This document shows, in pieces, positions 14,474 to 57,264 of a stretch of 64,000 nt of DNA. The DNA is taken from assembly GCF_003073045.1 (NCBI RefSeq), contig NC_037602.1, forward strand, positions 558,001 through 622,000. Direction: 5' to 3'. The stretch is from Pomacea canaliculata (Eukaryota > Mollusca > Gastropoda > Architaenioglossa > Ampullariidae). The notes below the pieces were generated by a model. That model saw only the letters and a list, made by a program, of their open reading frames with translations. It had not been told where the DNA came from and searched no databases. The position numbers and the translations under genes are program-made. Every line of letters starts with the position of its first letter. Position 1 is the stretch's first letter.

Positions 14474-14600
14474 GGTACGTGAGGTCATCTTGCCTCCTCC
14501 AGACGATCATCTCATCTTCCAGTCGTCTGTCAGCTTTGTGTTTGTCCTGGTGTGACTGGGTCAAGTGCTTTGTCCTGTCTGCAGAAGTCTGTTTTCTCGT
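14474..14600. repeat. Dispersed repeat copy 1, about 130 bp
   Basis: This is nearly identical, in the same orientation, to 23264-23392 (shared start GGTACGTGAGGTCATCTTGC, shared end GTCTGTTTTCTCGT), with a few substitutions and a 3-bp indel. It directly precedes the 27-bp minisatellite, but the second copy does not. Confidence 0.85.
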
Positions 14601-14619
14601 TTTGTGTTGATGCGCATAC

Positions 14620-15727
14620 ATAGTGTGTAATCCTGTGTGTAGTTACATAGTGTGTAAGCCTGTGTGTGATTACATAGTGTGTAAGCCTGTATGTAACTAC
14701 ATAGTGTGTAATCATGTGTGTAGTTACATAGTGTGTAAGCCTTGTGTAGTTACATAGTATGTAAGCCTGTGTGTAGTTACATAGTGTGTAAGCCTGTGTG
14801 TAATTACATAGTGTGTAATCCTTTGTGTAATTACATAGTGTGTAAGCCTGTATGTAACTACATAGTGTGTAAGCCTTTGAGTAATCACTTAGTGTGTAAG
14901 CCTGTGTGTAGTTACATAGTGTGTAAGCCTTTGTGTAATCACATAGTGTGTAAGCCTGTGTGTAATTACTTAGTGTGTAATCCTTTGTGTAATTACATAG
15001 TGTGTAAGCCTGTATGTAACTACATAGTGTGTAACCCTGTATGTAACTACATAGTATGTAAGCCTGTGTGTAGTTACATAGTGTGTAAGCCTGTGTGTAG
15101 TTACATAGTGTGTAAGCCTGTATGTAACTACATAGTGTGTAATCATGTGTGTAATTACATAGTGTGTAATCCTGCGTGTAATTACATAGTGTGTAAGCCT
15201 GTATGTAACTACATAGTGTGTAATCCTGTGTGTAGTTACATAGTGTGTAAGCCTGTGTGTAGTTACATAGTGTGTAATAATGTGTGTAGTTACATAGTGT
15301 GTAAGCCTGTATGTAACTACATAGTGTGTAATCATGTGTGTAATTACATAGTGTGTAATCCTGTGTGTAATTACATAGTGTGTAAGCCTGTATGTAACTA
15401 CATAGTGTGTAATCCTGTGTGTAATTACATAGTGTGTAAGCCTGTATGTAACTACATAGTGTGTAATCCTGTGTGTAATTACATAGTGTGTAAGCCTGCA
15501 TGTAACTACATAGTGTGTAATCATGTGTGTAACTACATAGTGTGTAATCCTGTGTGTAATTACATAGTGTGTAAGCCTGTATGTAACTACATAGTGTGTA
15601 ATCCTGTGTGTAGTTACATAGTGTGTAAGCCTGTGTGTAACTACATAGTGTGTAAGCCTTTGAGTAATTACTTAGTGTGTAAGCCTGTGTTTAATTACTT
15701 AGTGTGTAAGGATGTGTGTAGTTACAT
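14620..15727. repeat. 27-bp minisatellite, about 41 copies
   Basis: The unit contains CATAGTGTGTAA followed by GCCTGT or TCCTGT and then either GTGTAGTTA/GTGTAATTA or ATGTAACTA. Many stretches alternate two unit types, giving a 54-bp higher-order period. Because 27 is a multiple of three, long open frames exist on both strands (for example 14742-15755 plus and 14530-15501 minus, with 9-residue CNYIVCKPV-type repeats). These are a consequence of the periodicity and are not genes that I would support. Confidence 0.95.
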
Positions 15728-17220
15728 GTGTCAACCGGCAGCTGTGGTGGTGTGATCGTTACCAGACAACTGTCCATTACTTGTCCAAAAGAAATAAGCC
15801 GTCCTAATAGCAAAGGATGCATGCAAGACTATGGCTATTCTAGAACGTTTCATTTTTTTAAACTCTCAAAATGAAAGTGGTCTGATTACTAAAGACTTTA
15901 AACAGCAAGGTCGTCTGAGGCCATTGCTAGGTGCCAGCCTAGTGTCTGACAAACAGTTTGTTACGTGGTCAGTCCTGCCAGTGACGTGTCATTTATCAGG
16001 ACAATAGCTGCCACTCACACTCTCGCCAGGTGCCAACATTGCAAGTGTTTAAATATGAGAGCATTTTATTTATCACAACAATGAGACGCTCATGTGGTTT
16101 GTTGCCCAACGAACCGCTCGCTATTAGGACGCAGGTGGCAGGGAACGATGTTCAGTCATCTGTCATCAGTCATCTGTCTCTCGCAGGCTGGTCTGACGGT
16201 GTACGTACATCACAGCCTCGTGTGATGTCCACACACTTGTGAATGTACAGATGGCCCGAACACACACACCATCACACGCGTTCACAAACGAGCACGTGTG
16301 TTACACTGAGGACCGAGTGTGTAATACCCTGACAACAAAAATAACAACGGACCCCAATGGTCACAGTGAACAAGAAAAACAAAACTGAGAATACAAGGGT
16401 CAGTGCTACTGGGACAAACACTGTTCTTTCAAAGTCTTGACAAAGTAGCCACAATCACACTCACACTGTCACAAATCACAACTCGGATTTCCCAAAACAC
16501 GGACAACCCCGCCAGGTGGCACCACGTGCTTCCCGTCGTGGGTATGCAAACGCGCAGGGTGTACATAAACAAAGGGGAAAATGGATTTGATTGCCTGAAA
16601 AGGAAAAAACTTTTTCCCAGCATCATAAACTGTTCTCAATGCACTGTCCCGTTAGATAAGACAATATTTCCAAGCGGACTGCTCAGTCACTCTTATCGTG
16701 TGTCCAATAATTGGCTGATGGCTGGTCCTGGAAGACAGGCGGATTTGAAGTAACTGGCAGTGATGTAGACATGTTTGTCTCCTCCTTACTTCAACGTCTG
16801 TCCAACACTTTGTTGGTTTACAGCGCTCACTCCACACTGAGCAAGTGAAAACAACAAAACCAGATAAACATCAGTCAACCCACTGCCTGTCAGGCTGGCT
16901 CCTTATGCTTCAGCCGATAGGTTGACCTGGAAAAGGAGAAAATGTAATGTTCTTGTTGGTCCGGAGAGCAGGGATCCCTAGCAAGTCTGGAACTTGCTGG
17001 AGGCCTCAGACGCCATCAGAAGATAATGAATATTGCATTTAAAAGGAAAAAACAATGAATGAGCAGTTTGTCGGCTCCATCAGGTACACGGGGTCACCCA
17101 CAACCACTTGCTGACAGATGATGCATGGAAAGTGATCTCAGACCACAATGTTGCCAAAAGACTGGGCGCCGTGTGGAGGTGTGATGATGATGTAGTCCTT
17201 TCACCTGCTCGTAGGCGCCT
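15728..17220. other. Intergenic region, no gene recognised
   Basis: This is mixed-composition sequence with several short spurious frames. It probably includes the 3' untranslated region of the vWA gene at its upper end. I see no conserved protein, RNA gene or element ends. Confidence 0.5.
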
Positions 17221-20200
17221 TTACAAGTCTGCAAAGACAACAAAAAAATAATCAGTGCTTTTGTAATGTGAGTATTGCTAGTGAGGCTAGAGACTGAGCA
17301 CTACAGCTTTGAAGTTTTTGTTCCACAGCAAGTTGTTCACTCAAAGTATTTGTATGTATGTTCGCCAGCAGTTAATTGTCACATGACAAGGACAGGAAAA
17401 GACCTGAGATGGTCATGCAGGGCAACTTGCACATTGGAGTGGGCTTCAGCTTTAAACAAAGAGGCTTTACAAACGGTAACTGTTGTGATGAGATAAGACA
17501 AGCTGTTGTTTATGGGATGTATGCTCGATCTGTCATGAAGAGGAGGTGAGGCTTGTGAAGTAGAGCGGACCGTGGTTTATGTAAACCCTGTTCTAACGAG
17601 AATATAAACAGTTCACAGGTGGAGCTGGGAGCCTGGCCCATAAAACTTCCAGCAGCAGATCTCGTTTTCAAACTCTCATTGTAATATCATAACCCATTCA
17701 TAACAACAGTTACAAGTACCAGCCACCAGTTTCCACAAATAATGTGACAGGCTGCACTAATGATCTCCCTTCCAACCACAAAGGGAGGAAACCACTCACT
17801 CTGACAGAAGACGCCGAGAAACTGCCGTCGGACTGTGGGGTCCAGCAGGCTGTCGTAGCTGCTGACTTTGATGATCTGAGACGGGGAGGTGATGATCTTC
17901 AACTGACTCTCGTCGCAGTTGTTGCCGATGGCGATGACGTAGACGGAGGCCTTGAACTTGAGCATGAGCGCCTCGTACGTCACCTCATTGAACGACGTCA
18001 GCACGTCGTCCACGAAGACCACCGCCATCTTGGCAGCGTCCGGCCGCCCTCCGCGTGCTGCCTCGTACCCCCCGACACGCAGGCGCTTGAGGAGGGTGCT
18101 GAGGCTGGGAGGGGCCTGAGACTGCAGCTCCGCCACGAAGCTGTCTCGCCGGAAGTGCTGCGACACAAAGATGGAGGAGATGTAGGAAGTTGAACCCATT
18201 CATGACTCGATACTTGTATATGAATGCACGTGCATGTAAGCATAGCACCATTTGGTGTACACTCAGCCTCATACAACATTTACCCGTATTAAGCTCGCAA
18301 GCCAAGGCTTCTGACGAACGTTACCCCTGACTTAGCACTCGCTACCAAGACTGTTTTCTATGAGGTCAGAAGATGCATTTGAGTAAAGACTGAAGATAAT
18401 GACGAGGACGAGTACTGAACACAGGAGATGGTGATGGCAATGGCAGAGATGCTACATCTAAAGATAATGTCACAACGAACAGAAAACCTATCCTCTAATG
18501 ACATACAGTGATACCTCGGTTCTCGAACGCCTTGACTTTCGACCAAATCGGTATTCGACCAGGAAAGTCGAGAAAATTTTGTCTTGGAATTCGAACAAAT
18601 ATTTGGAACTCGAACATCCGAACGTCCGAGATGAGCCGAGTTGAGCCGAATGGCGTTCATTGGGCCCAGCGCGCCTTGCTTGCGTCATCAGTGACAATAA
18701 CCATCCCCCTTCCCTCCTCCCTCCACATTCATTCCCTCCTGCCATAAAGTGTGGTACAGGTACAGTAAATGAAACACAATTTACTGTACTGTACAATGCA
18801 TTTTTTTTTTTTTTTAATAAATACACTTTTATTTCTTATTTCTTGTTGAGACTCATGTTTTTCTACATATTATATACAAATTAGGCCAGTAAATAGGCAT
18901 TTTCTGGGGCTTGGAACGAATTAATCCAGTTTCCATTATTTCCTTTGGGTTTCATTGCTTCGGTTCTCGAACAATTTGGTTCTCGACCGTCCTCCCGGAA
19001 CGAATTATGTTCGAGAACCGAGGTATCACTGTACTAGTTTACAGACGACAAGGACAAGGTACTCACCTTGCCCAGATCGATGTCTCCGGGCTGACAGGCC
19101 TGCGACACGGTCCCCACGCGGATGTTTCCGGTTCCAAAGTTAAACTCGTGGACCGTTTCGTTTACGAACCGTCGGACCTTAGTGACGTCACGAGAGCTCA
19201 TGGTGGCCGAGTTGTAGACAAAGATGACGTCAGCCTTCCGGTTCTTCCCGCATGCTGTGAGACATAAAATGTCCGTGCTTGTGACTAGGCATGTGTGCGA
19301 CAGTTCACAGCCATAACAGAACACCAATCCAACAGCTGTTAAATAAATTAAGTTTTATGGAAACTTTGATCATTCCCACATTAAACACACTCACATACAC
19401 GTCAACCATTCGTCAGACACAGTCGTCAGCACTGACGTACCGGCGTCATCAGCCTGCGGCAGCTCGGTGTTGCAGATGCTGACAGCCAGCCTGGAGCCCA
19501 AGGTGTTGAGGATGTCGAAGCTGGCCACTTGCATGGCGAACTCGTCAGACGGCTGAGAGGCAATGGCCTTGAGCTCGTCCACGTCGACGTCGTTGCCCAC
19601 GCCCACGGCAAACAGCCATATCCCGTCGTCCCGAGCGGCGATGGCCTCGGCCTCTGTGATGCTAGGAAACCGCGACTTGCCGTCCGTGATCACCACCCCT
19701 ACGCGGGTCACGTTCTTGCGTGCGATGCCGTCGCGGAAACCATGCGTGCGCATGCCGTGGATACCTCTTCCGGTGTACGTGTCGCCCGAGATGTAGGGGG
19801 CGTTTTTAACGGCTCGGATGAGGGTGTTCTTGTCGGGGTAACCACCGAGGTCCAGTACGGGTACGAAGGAATTGGAGAAGACGCCCAGACCCACCCGAGT
19901 GGCGTCGGGTGCGATGTGCATCCGCTCAATGATCGAGACGACGAAGCCGAGAAGTTTCTCGAAGTCGACGATCCAGACAGAAGAGGAACAATCCAGCAGG
20001 AAGTAGATGTCCACCGGCTTTTCTGCGCAACCTGTAAGTCAATAAACCACAATGTAAGACTGTCGGTCAAACTGCAGAACAATGTAAACAACTTATCAAC
20101 CGATGTAAGTAACTGGGTCACAACCAGAATGATTATCTTGTCTGATTTAACATTTAAAAGGGAGAAAAAGGGAGAAAAAAGTATGGAATAAAAACAAGAA

Positions 20201-23263: not shown

Positions 23264-23392
23264 GGTACGTGAGGTCATCTTGCCTCCTCCAGACGATCAT
23301 CTCATCTTCTTCAGTCGTCTGTCAGCTTTGTGTTTGTCCTGGTATGACTAGGTCAAGTGCTTTGTCCTGTCTGCCGAAGTCTGTTTTCTCGT
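23264..23392. repeat. Dispersed repeat copy 2, about 130 bp
   Basis: Direct copy of 14474-14600 with few differences. No terminal repeats or target duplication are obvious at either copy, so the mode of spread is unknown. Confidence 0.85.
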
Positions 23393-35616: not shown

Positions 35617-36998
35617 TTACGCATCCAGGTGGAGGAGCGTGATGGACAGGAAGGAATGGTAGGAGCCCCAGTACAAGCCCTGTGCGAATGTCTCCAGCCA
35701 CACCTTGTCTCCGGCCTTGACCCGCGCCGACACACCCGACGAGCAGGAGGGCGGGTACTGGCTGGTGACGTCAGGCCCCCGGGCTCTCACGAGGATGTTG
35801 CCGTTCACCTTGAGGTCAACTGCGAAACGTCCAGTAAAGTCCGGGAACATCTGGAAGTTGATGGCGTAGATTCCAGAATACTTGACCGAGTACACGCCAG
35901 TGGTCGGGTCAAATCCGTCTCCGAGGTCGAAGACCTCAGTAAAGCGGATGGGAACAAGGTCAGGGACGTTGACCTTTCCGTCACTAGGCATAGGAAGCTG
36001 ACCTAGAAACGCCGCTCTTGACTCTGTAATTAGTAAACAAAATGTAAGAAATGAAGTAAAATTCCTGGATCATAGAAAAGGGCTGTTATACTCGTGTTTC
36101 AATGATTTATGTCTTCAATGGATTTAACAAATAAGTAATGAAATCTGTATGAAAACAGCAAACGACTTTTGAGTGTTGTCAGGGCAGTCAGCACGTGCAC
36201 GTGTTGTGTCAAATACATGGAGATCTCACCTGGAATTCATGTCTGACCTACAAAATACAATCTCTCTCTCTCTCCCGGTCCTTCAATATTCAAAATTCTT
36301 CCCTCTCTGTCTTCATTTTCTTACCTTCAGAATTTTCCAAAGCTGCGACTCTTGCCACTAAGGCTTCGACATCCTGAAAACGAGAAAAACAATTGACTAA
36401 GGAAACATACGCTGCATATATTTTGATATCATTGTGTATACGATATGTTGATACTTGGGTATATGAAGGCACGACAGAATGAACACAATTTCACACACAG
36501 GCAGACACATGCCCCCGTTTAAAAAATACATGTTATTTCTGTAAGTTGTAAGTTAATATGCATACCATGCGTGTGTGTGTGTGTGTGTGCACGCGCTAAC
36601 ATGAGTTTTACGTGTTCCACATCTTCCAGCGGCCTTTGAGTAAAATTACAACAATGTTCGAAGAGGAGAGGCTGCCTTGTGTTTTATCTTCTCTGTATAA
36701 TCGGGTTTCACACGGGACAGAATAAAATGTGCAGTGGAAACCACTGAGCTCCGGGCTCTACAATTACAAATTACACTTACGGCACAAGGCGCGTGTTCTC
36801 ACGAAAATGTCTTTATTGTGGGATCTCTGAAAACTCAGGAATAATACATTGTGTATACTTTATATAAACTGTCCGCACCTGCGAGAGTTTGCTAACCACA
36901 ACTTGCAGTGGGTTTACATCATCGGACCGTTTGACCACGTGACTTGCAGCTGTCACACCCGCAGATGCAAAGATCACCAAAAGTAAATACATCTTCAT
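35617..36998 (-). CDS. C1q domain-containing secreted protein A, 191 aa
   Basis: Coding exons on the minus strand are 36879-36998, 36325-36373 and 35617-36023 (576 bases). Exon 1 encodes a signal peptide (MKMYLLLVIFASAGVTA) and a short linker with KRSDD. The 49-base second exon encodes a heptad-type helix (DVEALVARVAALENSE) suited to trimer formation. The third encodes the globular C1q/TNF-like fold: FTEVFDLGDGFDP, GVYSVKYSGIYAINFQMF, DLKVNGN, SGVSARVKAGDKVWLE, then SFLSITLLHLDA. There is no collagen stalk, as in many molluscan C1q-domain proteins that act as soluble pattern-recognition or clumping factors. A noncoding leader exon ending at 37217 and a 3' splice site at 37033-37035 are also supported. 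It is the most divergent of the three paralogues in the window. Confidence 0.92.
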
Positions 36999-39215: not shown

Positions 39216-39319
39216 TAAAGGGTTTCTTGTGACGATAGATATCATTGATTCCCGATCAAAAACAAGCCAGAGCATCCATAAAGCATCCTACGTTGACATG
39301 TCAACATACAGTTCAGAAA

Positions 39320-39740
39320 GGATGAAAAGAGAGAAGACGAAATATATAGAAAAAGAGAGAAACTAAACTAAGCTAAACCACAAAGACAATAAATGAATAA
39401 ACAACTCACAATCAACTAAATGACTGAGTATGTACTTATACTTGAGGACAAAGGCAACTTTAGATACGAAGATGTTTTGTAACAAGTCAGAGTTACACAG
39501 CAAAAGATCGACGGCCATGTTCTGCTGTTAGTAATTATTATGTGAGCTGTACATGACAGAAATAATCACTTTGTATCATCTATGTTACAGTCCGCTGGTG
39601 TCTCTGAGTTGGTTTAAAGTTTATACTCAATAAATCAAAAGAAAGACAACGAGGTGGATATCATTTTAACTTGTTACCGGCTTTCACCCCGTCTCTGCAT
39701 TTCCGTTCATTGACATATTTACATGAAGACCACGTTGTCG
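39320..39740. repeat. Downstream part of the B/C duplication (B copy, empty site)
   Basis: This block is closely similar to 43045-43303 plus 44383-44409 plus 45573-45701 below gene C. At the matching points it lacks both hAT insertions, so it records the pre-insertion state: 'atctatgttacag' before insertion 1, and 'gagttggtttaaagtttata' at insertion 2. Confidence 0.85.
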
Positions 39741-41507
39741 TTAAGCCTCAGGAGTAACCAGAGTGATAGAGAGGAAGGAATGAACCCTACCCCAGTACAT
39801 GCCCTCCATGGAGGTCTCCACCCAGAGTTGGTCGGCGGCCCGGACACGCACAGACACGCCTGACGACACGGAGGCTGCGTAGGTTGTGATCTCAGTCGTT
39901 CGGGATCTCACCAGAAGGTTGCCATTCATCTTTAGGTCAACCTGAAAGCCCTCGTTAGTGAAATCTGGGAACATCTGGAAGTTGATGACATAGACTCCCG
40001 AGTACTTGGCTGTGTACACTCCTGTCACGGGGTTGAAGCCATCTCCGAGGTCAAAGACTTCAGAGAAATGGATGGGAGCTTGTTTTGGCACGTTGGTCCG
40101 TCCATCACTGGTTATGGGCAGCTGACCGAGAAACGACGCCTTCCGTTCTGTAATAAAGAAAACATTTGCTTTGTTTTTAGCAGGACTTAGTAAACAGGAG
40201 TTGTCGTGCTCAAAGTAATGAGTGAATAAATAAGCATGCACGGAGTGAGTCTCTAAACATGTTTACACTACAAAAATATTGAATTCAGATGTTTTGAATT
40301 CACTATCATTTCAGTTTAACAATTACGGCGAAAAATTTAAACCTGGGCAAAAACGAAGGAATTCATCTTGTTACAATCAAGAAGTTTCTACTGTCCACAG
40401 TTCCTACCTCTCCCCTGAGGTAACTGCTCTCCAACATCGACAACGAGAACTACAGTGACAACTACAGTTAGACCTACACCGCCCACACAGCCGACACCTA
40501 GAATGCTCGAGAACACGTCTGTCCTTCTAAAGCTTCACTGAGGGCCAAGCAAAGACGATGATGCGAACTCTTCTGTATTGTACTCGTTCTTAGTTTTGTA
40601 AGCAATACATTTTTATCATCATACTCTGTTGAGTTGAGGACGTGCGACCAGAGAGTCTTCAGTAGGGTTTCCTTGCATGGATACATCGTTAGACCAATGG
40701 ACGAGAATGGACACCAACGAATGTCTGTCCTACTTTCCAAATTCTTCTCCTCTCAAAGATTTTGAAAATAAAATATTCTTACCTATAGAATTTTCTAGTG
40801 CTGTGATTCTTGCCAGTAATGTTGTGACATCCTGGAACGTCCAGAAAAAAACATGACCACCATCTTGTGAAAAACATATATGTATATAGAAAAACGCATA
40901 TACGATACACACAACTGCATACAGATGTACAAAAGTACATTGTCATTAAGAGAGTTCAGTTCTTGACCATACAAGTCATTATACATATATAACCTTACAA
41001 GTAATTATATAACCAGACAAGTCATTATATGACCATACAAGTCATTACATAACCAAACAAATAATTATATCACCATGCAAGTCATTATATCACCACACAA
41101 CTCATTTAGTTTTGTATTTAAAGCTCAGACTGGGGAGCCTCCTGTGTCCAGTCAAGCGCCATCAGGAGAAGACAACTCAGGTTCCCTATTTGTAGCAGGT
41201 GACTGACTAGTCATTAAGTCCTGTGTGTTTACCTGATGCCCCTGCATCTCTACCTGACATGTCGCAAGTAAAATCTCATATTTGAAATACAAACCACGTG
41301 ACTACAGGTGTTGGATATTATCGCACAGTGACAAAGATGTCAAACATCATCTACAGACAGTTGTTGCTTAAGGAAGGAAGAGTTGTTTACCTGCGAGAGA
41401 TTGTTGACCACAACTTGCAGTGGGCTGACATCGTCTGACCGTTTGACGACGTCTGCTGCTACCACAACCGCCAATGTCAAGGTCACCATGAGTAGCAGCA
41501 TCTTCAT
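39741..41507 (-). CDS. C1q domain-containing secreted protein B, 190 aa
   Basis: Coding exons on the minus strand are 41391-41507, 40783-40831 and 39741-40147 (117, 49 and 407 bases). The product starts with a signal peptide (MKMLLLMVTLTLAVVVAA), then DVVKRSDDVSPLQVVV, a coiled-coil exon (DVTTLLARITALENSI), and a C1q fold with FSEVFDLGDGFNP, GVYVINFQMFPDF, VDLKMNGN and SVRVRAADQLWVE. It is close to protein C along its length. Intron 2 contains about 540 bases that gene C lacks. A TATA-like box and a leader exon lie upstream at about 42023-42100. Expected role: secreted lectin-like recognition or haemolymph protein, forming trimers. Confidence 0.93.
40960..41105. repeat. About 22-bp tandem repeat in intron 1 of C1q gene B
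   Basis: Six or so imperfect copies of 'gaccatacaagtcattatat' with 'aac' spacers. The equivalent intron of gene C has a single copy near 46400, so the array changed size after the duplication. Confidence 0.85.
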
Positions 41508-42966: not shown

Positions 42967-43303
42967 CCATTAGGGCATCTCTATTGAATTTTCACCGATA
43001 TCCAACGGACACTCTCGGAAATAGTCCGAAACCGAGAGACAGGCTGAGAAGAGAGAATGAGAGATATTGAGAAAAACTAAAGAGAGAAACTAAACTAAAC
43101 CAAAAGGCAAAACAAATAAATGAATAAACAACTCACAATCAACTAAATGACTGAGTATGGACAAAGACACCTTTAATTCTGAAGATGTTTTAGCAAGTCA
43201 GAGTTACACAGCAAAAGATCGACGGCCATGTTTTGCTGTTAGTAATTATTATGTGAGCTGTACATGACAGAAATAATCACTTTGTATCATCTATGTTATA
43301 GAT

Positions 43304-44374
43304 CAGGGGTGGGCAACATACGGCCCGCGGGCCGGATCCGGCCGCGGACGGGATTTTGACTGGCCGCAGACTGTTTCTGGTCGTACATGATAATGTGGCC
43401 CGCGCCACATTCTGCCGCAATCTCCCACTACTAATTACTGCTTACTGCGAGAATAATAGTGACTGTTATTATTTTTTGGTTCTTTGTTTTCAGTTAGAAT
43501 TAGATTTAGAAGTCGGCAAGAAAGCAGTATGTTTGTTGTGCAGTGAAAGTGTTGCCGTGATGAGAGAGTATGTTAGCCGCCATTATGCGACGAAACATGC
43601 AGGCTATGGCAGGCTAAGGCAGGCTATGACAGGACTTTATCAGCAGCGGAACGGCAAACAAGAGCAACAGAACTGGACAGAAAACTTGTAAAGCAGCAGA
43701 ATGTATTCGTAAAAACCAAAGTAGCCCAGAAAGCTGCTATTCATGCCAGTTTGTGGTCGCATACAACATTGCCATGCACAGCAAATAGTTCAGAGATGGT
43801 GAATTTGTCAACAAGTGCATGCTCCATGTAGCTGATCAAGTCTGTCCACAGCAAAGAAAGAAGTTTGAAGAAGTCAGTTGGTCGAGAAGAACTGGGGTTC
43901 GCCACATTGAAGCAATTGGTGAAGACTGGACATCACAACTGAAAAGGCGGGTACCTTCATTTCAGCTGTTTTCCTTGGCATCGGATGAAAGCACTGACAT
44001 CGATGACACTGCACAGTTGCTCATCTTTGTACGAGGCATTTCAGAAAACTTTGAAATCACAGAAGAATTGCTGTCAATGGAATCAATGAAAGACACTACT
44101 ACCGGAGAAGATATTTTTAGATGTATGGAAAATGCCATGCATACAATGCAATTACCATGGCAGAAAATGGTCAGTAGTACTATGGATGGTTGTCCATCTT
44201 TGACAGGAAAGAAAGTTGGTCTACTGAAGAGATTGGGAGTTTTACATTAAACACGATTTATTCCTTGCATATGTAGATAAATACGCGATTAAGGTATTGA
44301 TCCAGTAATCTGGCCCGCCAAGGACTTCATTTCCCCATATCCGGCCCGCCGACCGGAGAAGTTGCCCACCCCTG
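43304..44374 (+). mobile_element. hAT transposon, 1071 bp, with 8-bp target duplication TTATAGAT
   Basis: The ends are CAGGGGTGGGCAAC at 43304 and its reverse complement at the right edge. TTATAGAT is present on both sides (43296-43303 and 44375-44382) and fits the Buster-type target consensus with TA in the centre. GC-rich subterminal repeats (CGGCCCGC) are visible at both ends. The copy is truncated internally and keeps only the N-terminal half of a transposase gene. Confidence 0.93.
43356..44250 (+). pseudogene. hAT transposase N-terminal remnant (BED zinc finger, GTF2IRD2/ZBED-like)
   Basis: An upstream frame holds a BED-type finger (VCLLC...RHYATKH, about 43527-43600). After a frame change near 43690-43820 a second frame reads FQLFSLASDESTD then TAQLLIFVRGI, the conserved hAT block with the first catalytic Asp, and continues to a stop at 44250. 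The central insertion domain and the C-terminal dimerisation domain are absent. The product cannot be an active transposase. Confidence 0.8.
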
Positions 44375-44409
44375 TTATAGATTGCTGGTGTCTCTGAGTT
44401 GGTTTAAAG

Positions 44410-45572
44410 CAGCGGTTCTCAACCTTTTACATGTGGCGACCCCCCTGACGAACACCGGTACGTCCGCGACCCCCTTAGCCAGCTAGGTCGGTGAAAGCGG
44501 GGGGGGGGGCAGCTTTAGCTAACCTCGAACGCCGCGTCGAGGAAATCAATGCAATTCAACAACGAAAGAACAAAGTTCGTATCTGCAAGAAGTATAACTG
44601 TTAATGAAATTTTACTAAAGCTAATAAATATTATTTTATTGGACACTCACTTTGATTAATGAGAAGGTTGAACCTGCTTGCTGTTGCATAAAGAAGCGAA
44701 CCTGTGTGCGATGTTCGTACCCACTGCTATTCGCAGCTCAGCCTCTGCGTCCACACGATTTCTGTATTTCGACTTCAGTGCTGCCAATGCTGAAAATCCT
44801 TGCTCACACATATACGAAGTTGAAAATGGCAGCAGAACTTTCATTGCTTTCTCAGAAAGGAGAGGATATTCACCGTTGATGCTAATCCAGAATGTTGGCA
44901 CTGGTGTTGTGTGGAAGACCATTTTCAGGGATTGGTCACTCGAAAGGTCGATGAGCTGCTCTTCTTCTTGCGTGTACAACCCGCTTGTGCTAGGATCAGC
45001 CAGAAATGGATTACGAATCCAATCGTATTTAGTCACATCAATTTCAGCGAAATAATGCTGAAACCTTTCTTGCAGTCCGTTTAGATGGGCAATAATACAT
45101 TCTTCACCTGATCAAGATTCAAGTTGTCAGCCTTGCACTTACACAAGCACGGAAACATATCAAAAATATTTTCTTGGCGTATCTTTTGCGTCCACAACGA
45201 ATTTTTCGGACGAAAGCATTCATCTTGTCAGTTGTTTGTAATATGGTGGTGTAATATAGGGGAGTCAGCGATGAGAGATTGGGGGAGAAAGAGGGCAAAA
45301 GGCGAGAGGAGGGAGATTGGAGGCTTAATTGTTTGAGAGGGGATTGTGTTTTGAGTTTTGGAAGTGAGAAGTCACTGCATGCCGAGACAGTGTACTTGAA
45401 TAGGAAGAAAGATTTGGAGTTTGAGCCCCGCACCACTCGGGTTACACAATGTAAACTAATTCACTAATACCAGTATAAGAAACTTTTTTTAAAAAATGAC
45501 CACCTTCGCGACCCCCTTGTAGGCACGTCGCGACCCCCCAGGGGGTCGCGACCCACAGGTTGAGAACCGCTG
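44410..45572 (-). mobile_element. hAT transposon with SPIN-like ends, 1163 bp, target duplication GTTTAAAG
   Basis: The left end is CAGCGGTTCTCAACCT and the right end is its reverse complement (AGGTTGAGAACCGCTG), with subterminal GTCGCGACCCC blocks. GTTTAAAG flanks both sides (44402-44409 and 45573-45580), again with TA in the centre. The ends and subterminal blocks resemble SPIN-type hAT elements of the Buster group as I remember them. The copy is deleted internally and retains a C-terminal transposase piece on the minus strand. Confidence 0.9.
44656..45036 (-). pseudogene. hAT transposase C-terminal remnant (dimerisation domain)
   Basis: The 126-residue frame contains FWISINGEYPLLSEKAMKVL and LLPFSTSYMCEQGFSALAAL followed by KSKYRNRVD, the signature of the hAT dimerisation region as seen in SCAND3/FAM200/ZBED5-type proteins. 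The catalytic core is missing, so this belongs to a defective copy. It is a different element from the one next door: ends, strand and retained half all differ. Confidence 0.85.
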
Positions 45573-45701
45573 GTTTAAAGTTTATACTCGATAAATCAAA
45601 AGAAAGACAACGAGGTGGATATCATTTTAACTTGTTACCGGCTTGCACCCCATCTCTGCATTTCCGTCCATTGAAATATTTACCTGAAGACCATGGCGTC
45701 C

Positions 45702-46782
45702 TTAAGCCTCAGGAGTAACCAGAGTGATGGAGAGGAAGGAATGAACACTACCCCAGTAAATGCCCTCCCTGGAGGTCTCCACCCAGAGTTGATCGCCGGC
45801 CCGGACACGCACGGACACGCCTGACGACACGGAGGCTGCGTAGGTTGTGACCTCGGTGGTGCGGGATCTCACCAGAAGGTTGCCATTCATCTTCAGGTCA
45901 ACCTGAAAGTCCTCGTTAGTGAAGTCTGGGTACATCTGGAAGTTGATGACATAGACTCCCGAGTACTTGGCTGTGTACACTCCTGTCACGGGGTTAAAGC
46001 CATCTCCGAGGTCAAAGACTTCAGAGAAATGGATGGGAACCTGATTTGGCACGTTGGTCCGTCCGTCAGTGGTTGTGGGCAGCTGACCGAGAAACGACGC
46101 CTTCCGTTCTGTAATAAAGAAAACATTTGCTGAGTACATTATACTCTTTGTTTTTAGCAGGACTTAGTAAACAAATTCTTCTTCTCTCAAAGATTTTGAA
46201 AATGAAATATTCTTACCTATAGAATTTTCTAGTGCTGTGATTCTTGCCAGTAATGTTGTGACATCCTGGAACGTCCAGAAAAAAACATGACCAACATCTT
46301 GTGAAAAACATATATGTATATAGAAAAACGCATCTACGATACACACAACTGCATACAGATGTACATAAGTACATTGTCAGTAAGAGAGTTCAGTTCTCTT
46401 GACCATACAAGTCATTATATAACCAGACTGGGGAACCTTCTGTGTCCAGTCAAGCGCCATGAGGAGAAGACAACTCAGGTTCCCTATTTATAGCAGGTGA
46501 CTGACTAGTCATTAAGTCCTGTGTGTTTACCTGATGCCCCGGATCTCTACCTGACATGTCGCAAGTGAAATCTCATATTTGAATTACACTTGGCTACATG
46601 TGATATTATCGCACGTTGACAAAGATGTCAAACATCATCTACAGACAGAAGTAAGAGTTGTTTACCTGCGAGAGATTGTTGACCACAACTTGTAGTGGAC
46701 TGACATCGTCTGACCGTTTGACGACATCTGCTGCTACCAGACCCGCCAGTGTCAAGGTCACGAAAGGTAAGATTACTTTCAT
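45702..46782 (-). CDS. C1q domain-containing secreted protein C, 190 aa
   Basis: Coding exons on the minus strand are 46666-46782, 46217-46265 and 45702-46108, with the same lengths as gene B. The signal peptide (MKVILPFVTLTLAGLVAA) differs from B most strongly in its first residues, and the rest is nearly the same: DVVKRSDDVSPLQVVV, DVTTLLARITALENSI, FSEVFDLGDGFNP, GVYVINFQMYPDF and SVRVRAGDQLWVE. No coding damage is visible. Two hAT elements sit about 130 bases and more beyond the stop codon and probably lie in or next to the 3' untranslated region. A leader exon at about 48655 joins to an acceptor at 46808-46810. Confidence 0.93.
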
Positions 46783-57137: not shown

Positions 57138-57250
57138 GCCTACGCCATACCACGTTGAACACACCGGTTGCTCTCGTCGATCACCAAGTTAAGCAAGTCG
57201 CCCAGTTAGTACTTGGATGGGTGACCGCCTGGAACACTGGTGCTGTAGGC
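57138..57250 (+). rRNA. 5S rRNA-like gene copy with several one-base gaps
   Basis: The sequence from GCCTACGCCATACCACGTTG to GTGACCGCCTGG and TGCTGTAGGC follows metazoan 5S rRNA throughout, including the internal control region (AGTTAAGCA, TTAGTACTTGGATGGGTGAC). It is 113 bases against the usual 119-120. About six single-base gaps relative to the remembered consensus fall mostly at doublets or triplets of G or C, and one extra base is present. A T-run at 57258-57264 could end pol III transcription. It may be an isolated pseudogene or a gene with consensus errors. Confidence 0.8.
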
Positions 57251-57264
57251 AAAAACATTTTTTT

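Follow-up and report, generated by a model that had tools for sequence, protein, structure and literature searches.

The genome of Pomacea canaliculata (440 Mb, 14 chromosomes) has been described as carrying the marks of a recent DNA/hAT-Charlie burst, with a DNA-transposon peak near 4% divergence (PMC6129957). Two further hAT systems, TcBuster (PMC3499496) and Mar (PMC3517528), make 8-bp duplications with the consensus nnnTAnnn, and Mar is described as non-autonomous, its origin possibly lying in an internal deletion (PMC3517528). In bivalves, genes encoding C1q domains are reported to have undergone tandem duplication (PMC6835236).

The locus described here lies in a stretch of 64,000 nucleotides of P. 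canaliculata DNA, referred to in full as the window, and brings these subjects together: two hAT elements, E1 and E2, sit side by side below one member of a group of C1q-domain genes. They would be the same kind of element as those of the P. canaliculata hAT-Charlie expansion, and are young copies, although the extracted text of that account holds no single-locus descriptions and names neither family (PMC6129957). Furthermore, Charlie is the label of the published burst, whereas E1 and E2 are classed here by their ends, their duplications and their target consensus. Both agree with TcBuster and Mar in having 8-bp duplications of the form nnnTAnnn, but differ from them in host and sequence, and the likeness is one of target consensus, not of a transposase tree. 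The C1q genes are adjacent tandem duplicates, as are those of the bivalves (PMC6835236), while the host here is a gastropod. The features of the locus, in window coordinates, are as follows.

35617-36069, minus strand: gene A frame, C1q domain
39585..39592, unstranded: empty E1 site in gene B, TTACAGTC, with no central TA
39612..39619, unstranded: E2 site of gene B, empty and unaltered, GTTTAAAG
39741..40262, minus strand: gene B frame, C1q domain, the paralog holding the empty sites
43296..43303, unstranded: E1 duplication, left copy, TTATAGAT
43304..44374, plus strand: E1, a non-autonomous hAT element of 1,071 bp with ends CAGGGGTGGGCAAC and two separate transposase-like pieces
44375..44382, unstranded: E1 duplication, right copy, TTATAGAT
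44383..44401, unstranded: ancestral spacer of 19 bp between the duplications, matching gene B except at its first base
44402..44409, unstranded: E2 duplication, left copy, GTTTAAAG
44410..45572, minus strand: E2, a non-autonomous hAT element of 1,163 bp with ends CAGCGGTTCTCAACCT and the C-terminal transposase part kept
44656-45111, minus strand: retained transposase frame of E2, C-terminal part, Pfam Dimer_Tnp_hAT
45573..45580, unstranded: E2 duplication, right copy, GTTTAAAG
45702..46163, minus strand: gene C frame, C1q domain, neighbour of both insertions

Anatomy and relatives of the two elements

E1 and E2 are ordinary, well-preserved hAT insertions, each lacking the greater part of its transposase gene. 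The termini of E1 are 14-bp perfect inverted repeats and those of E2 are 16-bp perfect inverted repeats, and each element is bordered on both sides by a perfect 8-bp target-site duplication. Both thus carry the short terminal inverted repeats, starting with CA in E1, and the 8-bp duplications by which hAT elements are recognized. A scan of the window (64 kb) for CA...TG termini bordered by identical 8-bp duplications yielded five pairs; E1 and E2 match at 13 of 13 end bases, while the other three pairs have 3, 3 and 4 mismatches. The same scan on five simple shuffles returned 0, 1, 2, 1 and 0 pairs. Both families also recur in the genome with the same ends and 8-bp duplications. An earlier note on this DNA had placed two different hAT families at 43304-44374 and 44410-45572, and these boundaries are correct to the base.

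No accepted hAT domain match was found in Pfam for the protein pieces of E1: the frame at 43302-43691 reaches 22.9 bits with zf-C2H2_12, under the cut-off of 27.3, and the frame at 43789-44250 has no Pfam match. The latter frame does have relatives with open frames of up to 658 aa, at 54% identity. A DNA search of its own genome with E1 scored 40 of 121 candidates. In the search with the protein piece (150 scored of 406 candidates), no scored match of the close family, with 80% identity or above, was listed in an open frame exceeding 352 aa. Five more distant relatives, at 41-54% identity, have frames of 558-658 aa, and one of the five carries a stop within the match. Twenty further E1 loci were fetched, 18 of them with both ends, and their architectures range from about 1.0 to 2.0 kb. 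Perfect duplications border all eight copies of the initial set, the focal one included (7/7 others), and 15 of the 18 further copies with both ends.

In E2, the window fragment matches Dimer_Tnp_hAT, the hAT C-terminal dimerisation domain, at 22.3 bits against a cut-off of 21.4. The DNA search of the genome (40 scored of 1,140 candidates) found 39 other scored places at 95-98% identity, 36 of which cover the whole element, and perfect duplications are present in 28 of 30 copies including the focal one, the other two having one extra base at the left junction. One relative, L066, encodes a transposase frame of 641 aa, in which Dimer_Tnp_hAT scores 19.8 bits, under the same cut-off, and the D, D, CxxH and E motifs are of the kind found in hAT transposases. 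L066, whose fetched stretch is without the last 16 bp of one end, aligns to positions 1-843 of E2 at 97.9% and to positions 849-1147 at 95.1%, with 1,517 bp between the two blocks. Because of this gap, E2 lacks residues 1 to approximately 443 of the transposase, and it represents an internally deleted form of a longer element that encodes the 641-aa frame. Among the matches to the E2 protein piece (150 scored of 970 candidates), five lie in open frames of 645-680 aa. Five stretches of viral contigs fit a pattern of the E2 fragment, none of which was confirmed, and searches of NCBIfam and of solved structures gave no match.

Several further sequences were observed elsewhere in the window. A 5S rRNA-like sequence at 57138-57251 (plus strand), which scores 44.1 bits where the gathering score is 38, could be a gene, a pseudogene or a 5S-derived repeat. 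At 14617-15731 a 27-bp repeat is arrayed in some 41 copies, and both strands can be read as an open frame there (386 aa on the minus and 338 aa on the plus strand). A 129-bp sequence occurs twice, at 14474-14600 and 23264-23392, with 96% identity, and its first copy directly precedes this array. Von Willebrand A domains are encoded by two frames, at 17687-18199 and 19391-20038 (minus strand), the first barely over the cut-off.

The empty site in gene B and the age of the insertions

E2 lies 129 bp past the TAA stop of gene C and E1 lies 1,327 bp past it, and the insertions are therefore in or beyond the 3′ end of the gene. When both elements and one copy of each duplication are removed, the emptied C flank aligns to gene B with 786 of 864 positions identical and 27 gap positions, so that gene B, as had been claimed, runs uninterrupted through both points. 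There are no extra bases in the gene B flank at either insertion point, and the E2 site is identical, which bears out the earlier description of the two as clean insertions rather than as remnants of deletions with footprints. The elements are 35 bp apart (44375-44409) and their duplications 19 bp apart; the proposed spacing of 27 bp holds for the insertion points in the empty site. Since the insertions are clean and the empty site in gene B is intact, both most likely post-date the duplication that gave rise to B and C, in line with the original reading.

A search of the genome (440,159,624 bp, 24 contigs) with the gene B flank gave three candidates, all of which were scored: one is the flank itself, and the others are the two halves of C. 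That search thus gave no third flank copy able to polarise the differences between B and C. Gene A was considered as an outgroup for the flank and rejected, since it has diverged too far for an alignment at the points of insertion. Separately, several hundred bp of gene B are absent from gene C (40174-40738 vs 46134-46172).

However, one feature counts against a perfectly plain empty site. Four substitutions between B and C fall within 6 bp at the E1 site (39588-39593 vs 43299-43303 and 44383), a cluster with a chance probability of about 0.003 at that place and about 0.044 anywhere in 279 bp. As the length is unchanged, the cluster is no usual excision footprint, and it is left unexplained by an account of two insertions.

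The ages of the insertions were approached through private changes and trees. Compared with 29 close copies, each of which has 0-9 private substitutions, the focal E2 carries 18 in 1,163 columns; the counts of the comparison copies are biased low, as these are the copies closest to the focal ones. For the focal E1, the private changes number 15 in 1,058 (against 7 copies), 12 in 1,052 (16 same-architecture copies), 5 in 1,051 (19-25 copies, pairwise alignment) and 5 in 625 (25 copies, shared ends). The terminal branches in the trees are 15.5/1052 (1.5%) and 9.4/625 (1.5%) for E1, and 24.2/1162 (2.1%) for E2. A first tree of E1 was set aside, as the columns of its different-architecture copies are probably non-homologous (16-28% divergence, four column blocks). 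With approximately 0.5-1.5% private change in E1 and 1.5-2.1% in E2, both insertions are young.

It had also been suggested that the order of the insertions could be estimated from sequence divergence. Neither the private changes nor the trees delivered this: the terminal branches of E1 and E2 show no separable difference (p = 0.43). Because one private count for E1, 5/1051, differs from the 18/1163 of E2 (Fisher p = 0.019), E2 may be the older of the two, but the remaining three counts for E1 are nearer to that of E2.

Beyond the C1q frame, the differences between B and C amount to 20/279 sites in the near flank and to 9/249 and 19/338 sites in two other stretches, the last of which may hold a 5′ exon; the sum is 48/866 (5.5%), or about 2.8% per lineage. 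Over the whole flank at 39320-39740 the difference is 38/405 (9.4%), and in the C1q exon it is 22/430 (5.1%). The ages agree with the presence and absence of the elements in placing the insertions after the split of B and C, with differences from the B/C rate that are not significant (E2 p = 0.31, E1 p = 0.08).

Target preference, spacing and competing explanations

Target sites were compiled from 54 of the 58 fetched loci (24 usable copies of E1 and 30 of E2), leaving out L045 and L048, in which one end is missing, and L049 and L051, in which the duplication was not recovered. TA occupies the centre of the duplication in 53 of the 54 copies (E1 24/24, E2 29/30). For both families the motif is nnnTAnnn within a wider palindrome, with A and T three positions beyond the 8-bp core, and the target class is Buster-type by target consensus alone. 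When the 1,152 positions of the emptied gene C locus were scored with a matrix built from 52 non-focal sites, the E2 site ranked 1st and the E1 site 18th; 26 of the 52 known sites score below the former and 3 below the latter. Similarly, an earlier 8-bp matrix (36 sites) placed the E2 site 1st in C and 2nd in the gene B stretch, and the E1 site outside the top 14 of C.

The proximity of E1 and E2 was compared with that of other copies in a sample of 40 of the 121 E1 candidates and of 158 E2-family places, against 970 and 1,140 candidates. Within 1.5 kb, the focal pair is the only one (0.04 expected, p = 0.044, the expectations in this comparison using guessed sizes for three contigs), and the next pair is 7.2 kb apart. 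As the focal pair was the starting point, the relevant count is that of the other E1 places, and in this partial sample none of the 39 comes within 5 kb of any of the 158 E2-family places. Among the fetched loci, the surroundings of 29 other E2 copies, to a distance of approximately 1.5 kb, hold no E1-like DNA, and those of 7 other E1 copies hold no E2-like DNA. For the E2 family among itself, neighbours number 0 at up to 1.5 kb, 2 at up to 5 kb (expected 0.63), 8 at up to 20 kb (expected 2.34, p = 0.03) and 14 at up to 100 kb (expected 11.5). In L022, at 1411-2810, an E2 copy lies within another hAT of 230 bp, which has E1-like ends and the duplication CGCTAGAC. This is the only further hAT-like pair from a scan of the 58 loci, and it shows that one hAT beside another is not unique to the gene C locus.

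Cut-and-paste transposition by a transposase supplied in trans, with an 8-bp staggered cut, is the established mechanism of hAT elements. From the anatomy of E1 and E2, such a transposase would have excised each element elsewhere and inserted it at an 8-bp staggered cut with TA in its middle, the repair of which would have made the duplications. In the case of E2, the genome does contain relatives whose transposase frames are long and open. It is very probable, then, that the locus records two independent insertions of this kind, from two families, into the 3′ flank of gene C after B and C had separated, and that their 27-bp spacing is a coincidence. The idea that the elements, or one of them, pre-date the duplication and were lost from gene B, either through excision or through conversion by a copy that lacked them, would find a use for the four clustered substitutions at the E1 site. 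Yet hAT excision usually leaves extra bases, and gene B and the emptied C do not differ in length at either point, with an identical E2 site; nor did the genome search find a third flank copy that could have been the donor. Such a loss is very improbable. A single composite transposition that carried E1 and E2 together has their closeness alone in its favour and is ruled out by the separate duplications and by the 19-bp spacer, which matches gene B at every base but the first; in addition, no second E1-E2 neighbourhood occurs among the 40 E1 places sampled. We give it next to no weight.

The earlier note had further suggested a preferred or accessible target, and this is where the evidence divides. 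A local hot spot in the 3′ flank of gene C, through open chromatin or DNA shape, might have drawn both families: the two fully end-matched pairs are the only ones in 64 kb and are 27 bp apart, the E2 site is the best-scoring in the locus, one of the 29 other E2 copies is nested in a third hAT, and only 0.017 E1-E2 pairs within 27 bp are expected genome-wide, using copy numbers of 121 and 1,140 that are first-look candidates (the counts of scored places being lower bounds). Preference therefore stands for the E2 point. It is not supported for E1, whose site is a weak target, and for the families as a pair, given that they are unpaired elsewhere in the partial sample. Moreover, the number of chance pairs over all hAT families grows with the square of copy number and reaches 1.5 at an assumed 5,000 copies, and the case was picked after the fact. 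A hot spot is accordingly unlikely, and the spacing of the two independent insertions is best read as a coincidence noticed after the fact and helped by target preference at the E2 point.

Implications for gene C and for the two families

Of the five poly(A)-like hexamers sought, one TATAAA was found in the B flank (39315-39740) and one in the proximal flank of C (45573-45701). That of gene C, at 45581-45586 in plus-strand coordinates, touches the E2 duplication, and E1 and E2 each contain an AATAAA on the strand of gene C. A role of the gene C 3′ end as a landing spot for several Buster-type hAT families is unlikely. Were this true, E2, lying beside the TATAAA and bringing an AATAAA of its own, would possibly have shifted the transcript ends of gene C, and the expression of gene C would possibly have been separated from that of gene B.

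The locus alone opens no long-standing question. It does offer a clean teaching case, in which one of two tandem duplicates preserves the empty sites of both insertions, so that the two can be dated after the duplication, and the copies of E1 and E2 yield a TA-core target motif with a wider palindrome for two hAT families.
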